In this document: positions 1-12,392 of the stretch, one piece after another
How positions within the stretch are numbered: position 1 is the first letter of the stretch
Layout: the number at the start of each line of letters is the position of its first letter
Origin: Muribaculaceae bacterium
GTDB lineage: Bacteria; Bacteroidota; Bacteroidia; Bacteroidales; Muribaculaceae
Reading direction: 5' to 3'
Assembly: GCA_029058745.1 (NCBI GenBank)
Contig: JAIDXM010000020.1
Span: 1-64,000, forward strand
Length of the DNA stretch: 64,000 bases
The notes under the pieces: generated by a model
Database searches by the model: none
Seen by the model: only the letters and a program-made list of their open reading frames with translations
Told to the model about the DNA's origin: nothing
Position numbers and translations under genes: made by a program

Positions 1-80
1 CTTCCCATTCCGAACAGAGAAGTTAAACCTTATCACGCCGATGGTACTGCGAAAGCGGAAGAGTAGGTAATCGCCGCTTT
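1..80 (+). rRNA. rrf: 5S ribosomal RNA, 3' part (cut by window start)
   Basis: The sequence carries the conserved 5S core CCATTCCGAACAGAGAAGTT, then ATCACGCCGATGGTACTGCG and the 3' GAGTAGGTAATCGCCGC. The 5' third lies outside the window, so a 16S-23S-5S operon reading rightward probably precedes it. A rho-independent hairpin follows directly. Two degenerate copies of the same gene lie downstream. Confidence 0.93.
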
Positions 81-85
81 AGAGA

Positions 86-115
86 CCGGATTGAGATTTT
101 CTCAGTCCGGTTTTT
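86..115 (+). terminator. Terminator of the rRNA operon
   Basis: CCGGATTGAG (87-96) can pair with CTCAGTCCGG (101-110), with one G-U pair, and five T follow. It sits six bases after the 5S end, the usual position for the rRNA operon terminator. Confidence 0.85.
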
Positions 116-121
116 GCATAT

Positions 122-133
122 ATGTCCTTACAT
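122..133. repeat. Relic of the right end of the REP-like element
   Basis: ATGTCCTTACAT differs by one base from the right terminus of the two complete 130-bp elements (ATGTCCCTACAT). The bases after it (GATAAGAGTTCGATG) also align with those after element 1 (TCTAAGAACTTGGATG). It therefore looks like the remains of an element that once separated the first two 5S copies. Confidence 0.45.
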
Positions 134-258
134 GATAAGAGTTCGATGTAGTTTCCGGGTTCCACCTCTTCGCTTCCCGTATTTTGGCCGAACAGAGAGG
201 TCAGCCCTTGTCACGCCAGTGGCGCTGCGAAAGCGGAAGAGTAGGTAATCGCCGCCTT
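134..258 (+). pseudogene. Degenerate second 5S rRNA copy
   Basis: From the GGGTTCCACCTC block (157) to AGTAGGTAATCGCCGCC (240-256) the sequence aligns along the 5S rRNA, including CGAACAGAGAGGTCAG and TGCGAAAGCGGAAGAG. It has about six extra bases in the CCATTCCGAAC region (CCCGTATTTTGGCCGAAC) and changed bases in the 5' arm, so it probably does not fold as a working 5S. The third copy shares the insertion, so copy 3 probably arose from copy 2. It retains a strong terminator of its own. A divergent but functional 5S cannot be excluded. Confidence 0.7.
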
Positions 259-261
259 AGA

Positions 262-293
262 GAGTTGCAAGCGTCGCTTGCAACTCTTTTTTT
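262..293 (+). terminator. Terminator after second 5S copy
   Basis: GAGTTGCAAGC (262-272) and GCTTGCAACTC (276-286) form a perfect 11-bp stem with a three-base loop and a run of seven T. Its stem differs from that of the first 5S terminator. Confidence 0.85.
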
Positions 294-320
294 GCATATA
301 TATCTGTGACAGATGACTTT

Positions 321-450
321 ATGTAGGGACATGCCTTTGGCATGTTTGCCTGGTATCGTCCGTCGTTTGTTCATTTTGCATCATAATTGCGTGTTTTATG
401 CGTCGAGAATATCGCGTGCTATCCAACATGCCGGAGGCATGTCCCTACAT
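321..450. repeat. REP-like paired palindromic element, copy 1 (130 bp)
   Basis: The ends are inverted repeats, ATGTAGGGACATGCC at left and GGCATGTCCCTACAT at right. Each end is also a small hairpin on its own (ACATGCC, three-base loop, GGCATGT) headed by GTAG. Two GTAG-headed hairpins facing each other are the layout of a BIME, i.e. paired REP sequences mobilised by RAYT (TnpA-REP) transposases. No transposase is encoded inside. Short ORFs through it are artefacts of the palindromes. Confidence 0.75.
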
Positions 451-454
451 TCTA

Positions 455-568
455 AGAACTTGGATGCTTATTTCAGGGTTCCACCCCTTCACTTCCCATA
501 TAATGGCTAAACAGAGAGGTCAGACCTTGTCACGCCGATGGCGATGCGAAAGCGGAAGGGTAGGTGAT
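455..568 (+). pseudogene. Degenerate third 5S rRNA copy
   Basis: CAGGGTTCCACC (473-484), AACAGAGAGGTCAGACCTTGTCACGCCGATGGCG and TGCGAAAGCGGAAGGGTAGGTGATG match 5S rRNA in order. It carries the same insertion as copy 2 plus more substitutions, lacks the 3' end and its terminator, and runs almost straight into the second REP-like element. Not expected to be functional. Confidence 0.65.
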
Positions 569-574
569 GTCTTT

Positions 575-704
575 ATGTAGGGACATGCCTTTGGCATGTT
601 TGCCGGGTATCGTCCGGTGGTTGTCTATTTTGCATCACAATTGCGTGTTTTACGTGTCGAGAGTATGGTGTGGCATCCAACATGCCGGAGGCATGTCCCT
701 ACAT
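575..704. repeat. REP-like paired palindromic element, copy 2 (130 bp)
   Basis: Same length and ends as the element at 321-450, with scattered substitutions in the centre. It is preceded by GATGTCTTT, matching GATGACTTT before copy 1. The whole 5S-plus-element block therefore looks duplicated in tandem, rather than two independent insertions. Confidence 0.75.
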
Positions 705-7537: not shown

Positions 7538-8737
7538 ATGGTGACGATGCAGCAGTTTCTCCTTCGGCAGCCAGCCGCGCCGGAAGAGACCTCGACGGAT
7601 AGGTATTATCTGGATTTATGCAACAGGCTACTGGAAGTGGCGGAGAGGGAAAGACTGTTTCCCTCTTATCCGGTAAAGGTGGTTGAGAGGACGGCCATGG
7701 CTGTTATCGGATACTACCAGGATGTGATATGCGATGCTGGCATATGGCGGTCGTTCATCAACGAATGCCGTAGGCTTTACGGATATACAGTGCCTTTCTA
7801 CGACAATGGAGAGGAGGAATATCTCGATTACGAGCTTAACCGTATTGATGTCAGGTTTATGGTATGGTACGGCCTTTCTATGAACTATGAGGCACGCCGT
7901 GTATGGAATCCGTTGGATTCCGAGATTGTCAATGGAGCCGATGAATGGTGGCGGATTCTCGATGAAGTGTATGATGAGTCGCCATTGCCGGCAGATTATC
8001 GCCTGACCCATGAGCTTGAGATGCATGCGGAGGAAGATTCTGAGGCCATATACAAGCTTGGGAGCTGGCTGTTTCTTCATTGTTATCTCATGACCCCGGC
8101 TTATGCAATGACATTGTCGGAAATAGCATCCGGGATAGACTTGTCGAAAGATGATGGGATGAAGAAACTTCAGGAGAGTATGGACCGCAGTATGGGAGAA
8201 GACCCCACCGGACCGCTTGCCCTGTATCTGCGGGAATGGCTGTATCTTATCATAGAAGGGAAATTGCCTCCGTCGCGAAAGGAGAAGGAGAAGGGTGAAC
8301 ACAAGTATTACACTGCCTTCACGAGAGCCACAGGAGGTAAGGAGATGGCTATTTTTAAATCGTATGAAGAGCTGAACTCGTTTTTCATCTCAGCCTTGGG
8401 CTGGGAGAGTGGCCAGGAACATCTTCCGCAGATTAAGGGAGGACATGACTTTATCCTCATGGTAAACAGGGAAAAGGGGATGTTGTTGGCACGTGATATA
8501 GCACGTTGCATATGCTGTCCTGACAATCCGTTGTATGAAAAGGATTATGCGAAGGTCCATGCCATAGAGCTTCTTACTGAGAGAGGGTGCTGTCCGGGCG
8601 ATCTTTTGCGCCACATCTGCGCCAATGGATGGCTTCCCGACGCGGTGTTTCCAGGAGATGACAATCATGGCCTTGTTGCAGCCAATTATGATTTCATATC
8701 GCGGTGTTATCTCCAACAGTATTACCGAGGGGATTGA
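7538..8737 (+). CDS. DUF3843-like conserved protein
   Basis: 399 residues, soluble, no signal peptide or membrane segment. The N-terminal third has the pattern I associate with DUF3843 of Bacteroidota: TDRYYLDLCN, IGYYQDVICDAGIWRSF, LYGYTVPFY and NRIDVRFMVWY. The centre is rich in acidic and tryptophan residues (ADEWWRILDEVYDESPLP). The C-terminal part has a cysteine-containing ARCICCPDNPLY stretch. No catalytic motif is visible and the function is unknown. The start is three bases after the hisS stop; a second in-frame ATG lies three codons later. It ends at a bidirectional terminator. Confidence 0.7.
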   Translation: MVTMQQFLLRQPAAPEETSTDRYYLDLCNRLLEVAERERLFPSYPVKVVERTAMAVIGYYQDVICDAGIWRSFINECRRLYGYTVPFYDNGEEEYLDYELNRIDVRFMVWYGLSMNYEARRVWNPLDSEIVNGADEWWRILDEVYDESPLPADYRLTHELEMHAEEDSEAIYKLGSWLFLHCYLMTPAYAMTLSEIASGIDLSKDDGMKKLQESMDRSMGEDPTGPLALYLREWLYLIIEGKLPPSRKEKEKGEHKYYTAFTRATGGKEMAIFKSYEELNSFFISALGWESGQEHLPQIKGGHDFILMVNREKGMLLARDIARCICCPDNPLYEKDYAKVHAIELLTERGCCPGDLLRHICANGWLPDAVFPGDDNHGLVAANYDFISRCYLQQYYRGD

Positions 8738-8753
8738 TATAAACCAAATAAAC

Positions 8754-8783
8754 AAAAAATCCGGCAATTGCCGGATTTTTTTT
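8754..8783. terminator. Bidirectional terminator
   Basis: AATCCGGCAATTGCCGGATT is a near-perfect palindrome flanked by A on the left and eight T on the right, between the convergent DUF3843-like and glycosyltransferase genes. It can serve both. Confidence 0.9.
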
Positions 8784-8785
8784 GA

Positions 8786-9508
8786 CTATTTTCGGAATAT
8801 ACTGTCGAATTTAAGTTTTATCACCCCGAAGACCGCTTCCCCGAATATAGAGCTATTCATTTTGGAAGTGCCAAGACGGCGGTTTATGAATATGATAGGC
8901 AATTCCACAATCTTGAATCCTTTGGAGTAAGCCTTGAATTTCATCTCAATCTGGAACGCATACCCTTTGAATTCTATCCTATCGAGATTGATGGCCTCAA
9001 GCACCCTTCTTTTGTAGCACACGAAACCTGCCGTCGCATCCCGGAGTCTCATCCTTGTTATGAACCGCACGTATGCGGAAGCGAAGTATGACATCAGTAC
9101 TCTCCCCATCGGCCAGTTTACAACATTCACTCCTGATATGTAGCGAGACCCAATGGAGACATCCGCACCATTATCCTTACAGCTATGGTAGAGCCTGGTG
9201 AGGTCATCCGGATTGTGTGAAAAATCGGCGTCCATTTCAATGACATAGCCATAATCACGTCTTAAGGCCCATTTGAAGCCGTGTATATAGGCAGTGCCAA
9301 GACCAAGTTTGCCCTCCCTTTGTTCAAGAAAAATCCTTTCGGGGAATTTCCCCATCATCTCTTTGACTGCGGCAGCTGTCCCATCCGGCGAATTATCATC
9401 AATTACGAGAACATCGAAATTGTCAGGATACTTCATGACCGTTTCGAGAATATTCGAGATATTCTCGATTTCATTGTAGGTGGGGATTATGACAAGAACG
9501 TCACTCAT
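8786..9508 (-). CDS. Family 2 glycosyltransferase, polyprenol-phosphate mannose synthase-like
   Basis: 240 residues, GT-A fold, no C-terminal membrane segments. Visible motifs: VIIPTYNEIENI, VIDDNSPDGT, the metal-binding MDADFSHNPDD, GSRYISG and a late FKGYAFQIEMKF. This is the pattern of dolichol/polyprenol monophosphate mannose synthases (DPM1-like), which transfer a sugar from a nucleotide to a polyprenyl phosphate on the inner membrane. The donor sugar is not certain from sequence. A GtrA-type membrane protein, often a partner in such pathways, is encoded about 4 kb away at 13352-13843 but in another operon. Confidence 0.85.
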   Translation of the reverse strand: MSDVLVIIPTYNEIENISNILETVMKYPDNFDVLVIDDNSPDGTAAAVKEMMGKFPERIFLEQREGKLGLGTAYIHGFKWALRRDYGYVIEMDADFSHNPDDLTRLYHSCKDNGADVSIGSRYISGVNVVNWPMGRVLMSYFASAYVRFITRMRLRDATAGFVCYKRRVLEAINLDRIEFKGYAFQIEMKFKAYSKGFKIVELPIIFINRRLGTSKMNSSIFGEAVFGVIKLKFDSIFRK

Positions 9509-12215: not shown

Positions 12216-12216
12216 G

Positions 12217-12290
12217 TGACTCCTGCAGGATTCAAACCTGCAACCTTCTGATCCGTAGTCAGATGCTCTATTCAGTTGAGCTAAGGAGCC
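12217..12290 (-). tRNA. tRNA-Arg (ACG), copy 1
   Basis: The reverse strand folds as a 74-nt cloverleaf: acceptor GGCTCCT with AGGAGTC, D arm AGCTCAACTGAATAGAGC, anticodon stem TCTGA/TCAGA with loop CTACGGA (anticodon ACG, read as ICG after deamination), and T arm GCAGG-TTTGAAT-CCTGC. The discriminator is A and CCA is not encoded. Identical in sequence to copy 2. Confidence 0.97.
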
Positions 12291-12318
12291 TCGATGCTAT
12301 TATCAAGCGCGTTAATTG

Positions 12319-12392
12319 TGACTCCTGCAGGATTCAAACCTGCAACCTTCTGATCCGTAGTCAGATGCTCTATTCAGTTGAGCTAAGGAGCC
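12319..12392 (-). tRNA. tRNA-Arg (ACG), copy 2
   Basis: Identical 74-nt cloverleaf, 28 bases upstream of copy 1 in the direction of transcription. The TCGATG next to the 5' end of each gene is also repeated, so the pair arose by a recent tandem duplication of about 80-100 bp. Both are probably in one transcript ending at the palindrome at 12181-12215. Confidence 0.97.

Follow-up and report, generated by a model that had tools for sequence, protein, structure and literature searches.

The window, the 64,000-nt stretch of DNA analysed here, is the start of contig C25 in a 3.17-Mb assembly of 111 contigs from a Muribaculaceae genus (Bacteroidota). It opens with an array in the order 5S rRNA gene (cut by the contig edge), relic, 5S remnant, REP doublet, 5S remnant, REP doublet (Table 1). 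The first-pass annotation had described three successive 5S copies; a 5S gene and two remnants are indeed present, but they are interleaved with the relic and the elements. The leading copy (5S-1) was confirmed as a real 5S by its Rfam score, and the 30 model positions missing from its front were removed by the contig start. The hairpin behind it (T1) was recognized by eye and was not flagged in the terminator scan. Further into the window, two adjacent tRNA-Arg (ACG) genes lie on the minus strand (12216-12290 and 12318-12392), and an Rfam match to a Brucella sRNA at 8721-8801 (36.5 bits, far under the cut-off of 114) resembles a terminator hairpin.

Table 1 Features of the array at the start of contig C25
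Feature	Position	Strand	Basis
5S rRNA gene (5S-1), 5' end lost at contig start	1..79	+	Rfam RF00001, 45.8 bits, model positions 31-120
T1, terminator-like imperfect hairpin and T run after 5S	85..115	+	Sequence inspection
Relic, right end of a REP doublet with right flank	122..149	+	122-249 against 439-568, 82%
5S remnant 1 (earlier 5S-2), ~11 extra nt at loop C, 5' strand lost	152..256	+	Alignment to 5S-1
T2, terminator hairpin and T run	259..291	+	14-pair stem then T run (terminator scan); 13-nt perfect arms
REP doublet 1; arms 321-346 and 425-450, GTAG motifs at outer ends	321..450	+	Repeat alignment, fold
5S remnant 2 (earlier 5S-3), tail and terminator lost	471..568	+	86% to 152-249
REP doublet 2; arms 575-600 and 679-704	575..704	+	88% to doublet 1, 154 nt

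Remnants and doublets in the window

Remnant 1 is 87% identical to 5S-1 and remnant 2 is 71% identical to it (76 ungapped nt), and the two remnants share 86% identity over 98 nt. Comparison of both with the 5S model, a check proposed in the first-pass annotation, returned no Rfam match at E ≤ 1, and the intact, foldable core of an expanded functional 5S rRNA was accordingly not found in the window copies. Each is 5S-like with a terminal part missing, carries an insertion in the core at loop C, and lies behind a normal 5S in the manner of a distal 5S remnant at an operon end; the 5S and its terminator are seen, and the rest of the operon is beyond the contig edge. A homologous remnant at the end of contig C69 scored 25.3 bits against the Rfam 5S gathering score of 38. 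Contrary to the match in the window, the 5S model returned no hit when run against the whole genome, perhaps because the genome's 5S copies are all truncated.

Both REP doublets consist, as had been described, of two facing GTAG-headed hairpins in the BIME or REPIN layout, with arms of 26 nt that are 92% complementary and 78 nt apart. Their identity to one another extends into the flanks, which are included in the 154 nt aligned. Folded as single-stranded DNA, doublet 1 gave z = -7.0 against 200 shuffles. The element end reported earlier at 122-133 is present but longer than claimed, since the alignment of 122-249 with 439-568 takes in an element end together with the 5S remnant that follows it.

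Copies of the doublet and RAYT-like genes in the genome

The search for further copies of the element, which had also been suggested, yielded 53 exact palindromes in this genome and 7 long matches (107-154 nt) to the 154-nt element. All seven lie at the contig ends C25, C69, C57 and C20, which also contain 5S-derived sequence; the remaining matches, among 117, are at most 41 nt each, and 40 of the 63 candidate places were scored in this search. An alignment of five full doublet copies shows 1 variable column among the 52 of the arms against 28 among the 79 of the spacer (Fisher p = 2e-6), a count that omits the two fused C69 copies, one of which has a further left-arm change. At 17 loci away from the arrays, picked among REP-bearing places and not randomly, 6 of 50 REP heads fall inside an ORF of at least 120 aa, though such ORFs cover 63%. 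Thirty close REP pairs away from the arrays comprise 17 inward (GTAG outside), 9 outward and 4 tandem arrangements. The elements have in common with REP doublets (BIMEs, REPINs) a GTAG head on a 20-40 nt stem-loop, many genome copies, an extragenic position, and an inverted pairing of conserved arms around a looser spacer. Genus-wide, exact palindromes occur in 16 of 111 genomes.

Arrays of the same building blocks, in related orders, stand at these four contig ends; C69, C57 and C20 were located by searching with the doublet and with the 5S portion. Those of C25 and C69 begin in a 5S gene, and we infer that C57 and C20 are likewise operon ends behind a 5S gene. Read from the sequence, a 5S, a relic and a remnant at C69 precede two doublets fused without their intervening part; the order at C57 is terminator, doublet, a remnant without its 5' half and a second doublet, and at C20 it is terminator, doublet and remnant. 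By the same reading, the relic is present in C25 and C69. C57 and C20 have their first 77 letters in common and diverge from letter 78; in our reading this identity resembles an assembly overlap, so that their upstream portion probably represents a single collapsed operon end following a 5S gene. Because the assembly is a draft whose contigs break inside operons, none of the arrays is linked to a 23S gene in it. The doublet flanks are common to several ends and, by eye, are of two types, found after terminator T2 or after a remnant. Inspection also indicated that the second doublet of C57 is in one stretch as the first-position copies and in another as the second copy of C25; such a mixture of spacer variants is the pattern that conversion would give.

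GTAG-headed palindrome pairs are thought to be moved by RAYT transposases. The search for a RAYT (Y1) gene recommended in the earlier annotation identified two Y1_Tnp genes by profile, on contigs C27 and C73, with both proteins under the cut-off of the NCBI RAYT model. The C27 protein (345 aa) scores 29.4 bits for Y1_Tnp (cut-off 23), contains an HLH motif and YVTDNP, and reaches 31.8 bits against the RAYT cut-off of 80; for the C73 gene, one search gave a score over the Y1_Tnp cut-off and another a score just under it. One decayed REP lies ~490 nt upstream of the C27 gene. No intact REP was found beside that gene, and no REP within the 5.4-kb locus of the C73 gene. Of the 111 genomes of the genus, 85 have a relative of the C27 protein, with or without these REPs: by hand tally, such relatives are present in 13 of 16 REP-bearing genomes versus 72 of 95 without an exact REP (p = 0.76). 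G037 contains 46 exact REPs, yet no relative of the C27 protein is listed for it at E ≤ 1e-20. Since these relatives are present whether or not the REPs are, the RAYT origin of the doublet is putative and draws on general knowledge of REPs. Movement of the elements by RAYTs, as first proposed, finds agreement in the existence of Y1_Tnp genes but not in any RAYT-REP co-occurrence; the long doublet copies that were found all lie at operon-end arrays, a distribution that favours exchange between operons over RAYT movement.

Operon ends across the genus

Among 108 operon ends from 50 genomes of the genus, 19 ends, distributed over 15 genomes, have a 5S-derived copy within 600 nt behind the 5S at a score threshold of 40 (the highest of 540 shuffles was 26). 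The 108 ends exclude 7 ends without an anchor and one place, G082 C43. At 9 of them the anchor itself is classed as a variant copy, and the G102 count is therefore one of copies behind copies. Copies scoring 31-35 (G008 C10, G104 C35, G109) fall under the threshold though they are visible by eye.

The loop C insertion pattern has matches in 12 of 111 genomes, 9 of them in 5S context; the matches in G112, G113 and G123 lie outside 5S context and were set aside. A second recurrent insertion is located in the helix IV arm, between GCCGATG and GCGAAAGC. Its pattern (at most one mismatch) was detected in 15 of 397 family genomes, 8 of them in 5S context and all eight in this genus; the other 7 were rejected as lying outside 5S context. 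The present genome has the loop C insertion and lacks the helix IV insertion. The insertion earlier noted as shared by the two window remnants is thus real but not private to them, as it recurs in other genomes of the genus. The related proposal, that 5S and element had been copied as a block, is upheld insofar as remnant and doublet with shared flanks occur together at four contig ends; the remnants, however, are not simply recent decayed duplicates, because 5S-derived copies with same-site insertions exist in other species of the genus.

G102 and G138 contain complete 5S copies that carry the loop C insertion and score 47.9-55.0 bits, above the Rfam gathering score of 38. All six matched 5S copies of G102 carry this insertion and no ordinary 5S was matched in the contigs covered for that genome, which break inside operons; G102 is a candidate for an expanded functional 5S in Bacteroidota. 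Where the 5' strand is missing in G108, G044, G040 and G109, its place is taken by inverted 5S sequence, and this inverted 5' part could pair as a hairpin with the 5S part behind it. Five such flanks, chosen by eye, all outscore 2000 shuffles, the one in G109 narrowly. Tandem arrangements were also observed: a short 5S piece in ~33-nt tandem units behind the 5S at G040 C6, beside two larger remnant copies 171 nt apart, and three tandem 5S remnants with the helix IV insertion, 132 nt apart, at G031 C81. At five letters of helix II, the majority state of the remnants equals the species' own 5S in 13 of 15 genomes (shuffled maximum 11), the disagreements being this genome and G105, but this agreement carries no weight because shared ancestry could give it too; G032 was left out of the comparison, its ordinary 5S genes having been counted as copies, and the G022 result is unaffected. 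A scan of public genomes gave three matches in other groups (Loktanella, Roseicyclus and a Spirochaetaceae assembly), and a plasmid search gave one weak match of 74% over 17% of the query.

Doublets recur at such ends as well. Seven of the 108 ends, in 3 of 50 genomes, have exact GTAGGGAC heads within 600 nt, with both orientations at each end; none was found within this distance in the other 47 genomes by the exact search, which is blind to other REP sequences. In G011, two of the four operon ends have a REP doublet following the 5S terminator and another has a relic; in G089, such a doublet is present at two of five ends and a collapsed one at a third. The palindromes or spacers of these doublets differ from those of the window. 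G089 C47 repeats the window's succession of 5S, remnant and doublet. The best doublet copies of G089 (100% and 92%) stand at operon ends, with a 76% copy elsewhere (C15); in G011, two of the three copies of at least 82% are at operon ends, the third (C30, 82%) is elsewhere, and weaker copies on C36 and C21 (72-73%) are away from operon ends. G005 C281 has one GTAGGGAC with a mismatch, and G120 C50 a hairpin headed TAGGGACGCAC.

Origin of the array and comparison with known systems

The array is a real, recurrent feature. We consider it probable that a REP doublet landed behind the terminator, beside an old 5S remnant, and that exchange between operon ends then copied and reshuffled the resulting block. 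The array would be the worn 3' end of an rRNA operon whose 5S gene and terminator were followed by an old, insertion-bearing 5S remnant. A doublet, perhaps inserted by a RAYT, would have come to lie next to this remnant. Homologous exchange between operon ends, by unequal crossing-over and gene conversion as the patterns suggest, would have copied remnant and doublet together, and the block may then have spread across operon ends and been shortened by deletions. Selection, or re-conversion from the REPs present across the genome, may have kept the palindromes constant. Such exchange is proposed because the same blocks stand at four ends, the long copies were found only there, the arms are conserved while the spacers have diverged, and both a relic and a fused doublet are found.

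An unlikely course of events is that a RAYT inserted separate doublets behind each operon, beside each remnant, such places being favoured targets. The occurrence in three species of doublets behind 5S terminators with different palindromes or spacers would fit it, as would the wide distribution of RAYT-like protein relatives in the genus; yet the long copies here have a common spacer and flanks and were found only at the operon-end arrays, and the best-matching copies in G089 and G011 are mostly at operon ends too. It is very unlikely that the remnants are working genes, whether as expanded 5S rRNAs or as small RNAs that have terminators of their own. The window copies are without a 5' strand, have no Rfam match and are located behind a terminator, and a promoter scan with a sigma-70 model, as opposed to one of Bacteroidota promoters, gave 3 weak sites versus 1.4 expected, none of them ahead of a remnant on the plus strand; what speaks for such genes is that the complete loop C-insertion copies of G102 and G138 exceed the gathering score and that insertion sites recur.

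That the 5S fragments are attachment-site scars of integrating elements targeting the 5S gene appears highly improbable: several start near ACAGAGAAGTTAAACC behind an intact 5S and terminator, as scars might, but the fragment starts vary, and the fragments occur in tandem and have internal insertions. An artefact of short-read assembly of collapsed rRNA operons is scarcely credible, given four different ends here and like arrays in assemblies from several projects, even though contigs do end inside operons with, in our reading, apparent 77-nt overlaps.

Similar pile-ups in relatives suggest that ribosomal operon ends collect and share such debris. It is conceivable, if rather doubtful, that the operon ends of the genus are a shared recombination archive in which remnants persist and can pass insertions on to working 5S genes, G102 and G138 being possible examples, while doublets settle behind rRNA terminators and are copied between operons, with palindromes held constant by selection for function at highly transcribed ends. 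The array brings 5S remnants and REP doublets, two kinds of bacterial sequence debris, together at the rRNA operon end, and is a case of the apparent spread of both from operon to operon within one genome. Its constant arms and drifting spacer offer a natural test of functional retention of REP palindromes. Insertion-bearing 5S remnants that recur in Bacteroidota widen a phenomenon known from other groups, and this recurrence makes the donation of expansions by remnants to working 5S genes testable in long-read genomes. In the open-licence literature we found no previous account of 5S remnants that alternate with REP doublets, nor of remnants of this sort from Bacteroidota.

The excerpted text on RAYT (TnpA-REP) proteins and their repeats (PMC6006769, 2018) places REP-like sequences beside transposase genes of Bacteroidetes. 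The C27 protein, with its Y1_Tnp domain, HLH and YVTDNP, resembles the motifs tabulated there, and differs in its score under the RAYT cut-off and in the lack of an intact REP adjoining its gene. In the corresponding excerpts of a 2013 survey (PMC3733652), GTAG repeats are named for Proteobacteria, Cyanobacteria, Chloroflexi and the PVC group, and Bacteroidetes only for CGTC repeats. The HH dimers of GTAG REPs described in that survey, also called BIMEs or REPINs (PMC6006769), share with the doublets the GTAG head, a short stem-loop, many mostly extragenic copies and pairs with GTAG at the outer ends. Clusters of GTAG REPs are, like ours, repeated along with flanking DNA; unlike those in the survey excerpts, the repeated block here includes 5S remnants. 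For the remnants, the closest description is that of Stepanov and Fox 2021 (PMC7812874), whose available passages report 5S remnants with insertions at distal rRNA operon ends in Peptococcaceae and Pseudoalteromonadaceae, and insertion sites of expanded 5S rRNAs that cluster, among other places, from loop B to loop C, close to the three-way junction, and in helix IV. As in those passages, the remnants lack terminal parts, contain insertions, lie behind a normal 5S, are sometimes multicopy and have a putative terminator before each; in contrast to them, the remnants belong here to a Muribaculaceae genus, their insertions amount to ~11-13 nt net, and in this genome they alternate with REP doublets.
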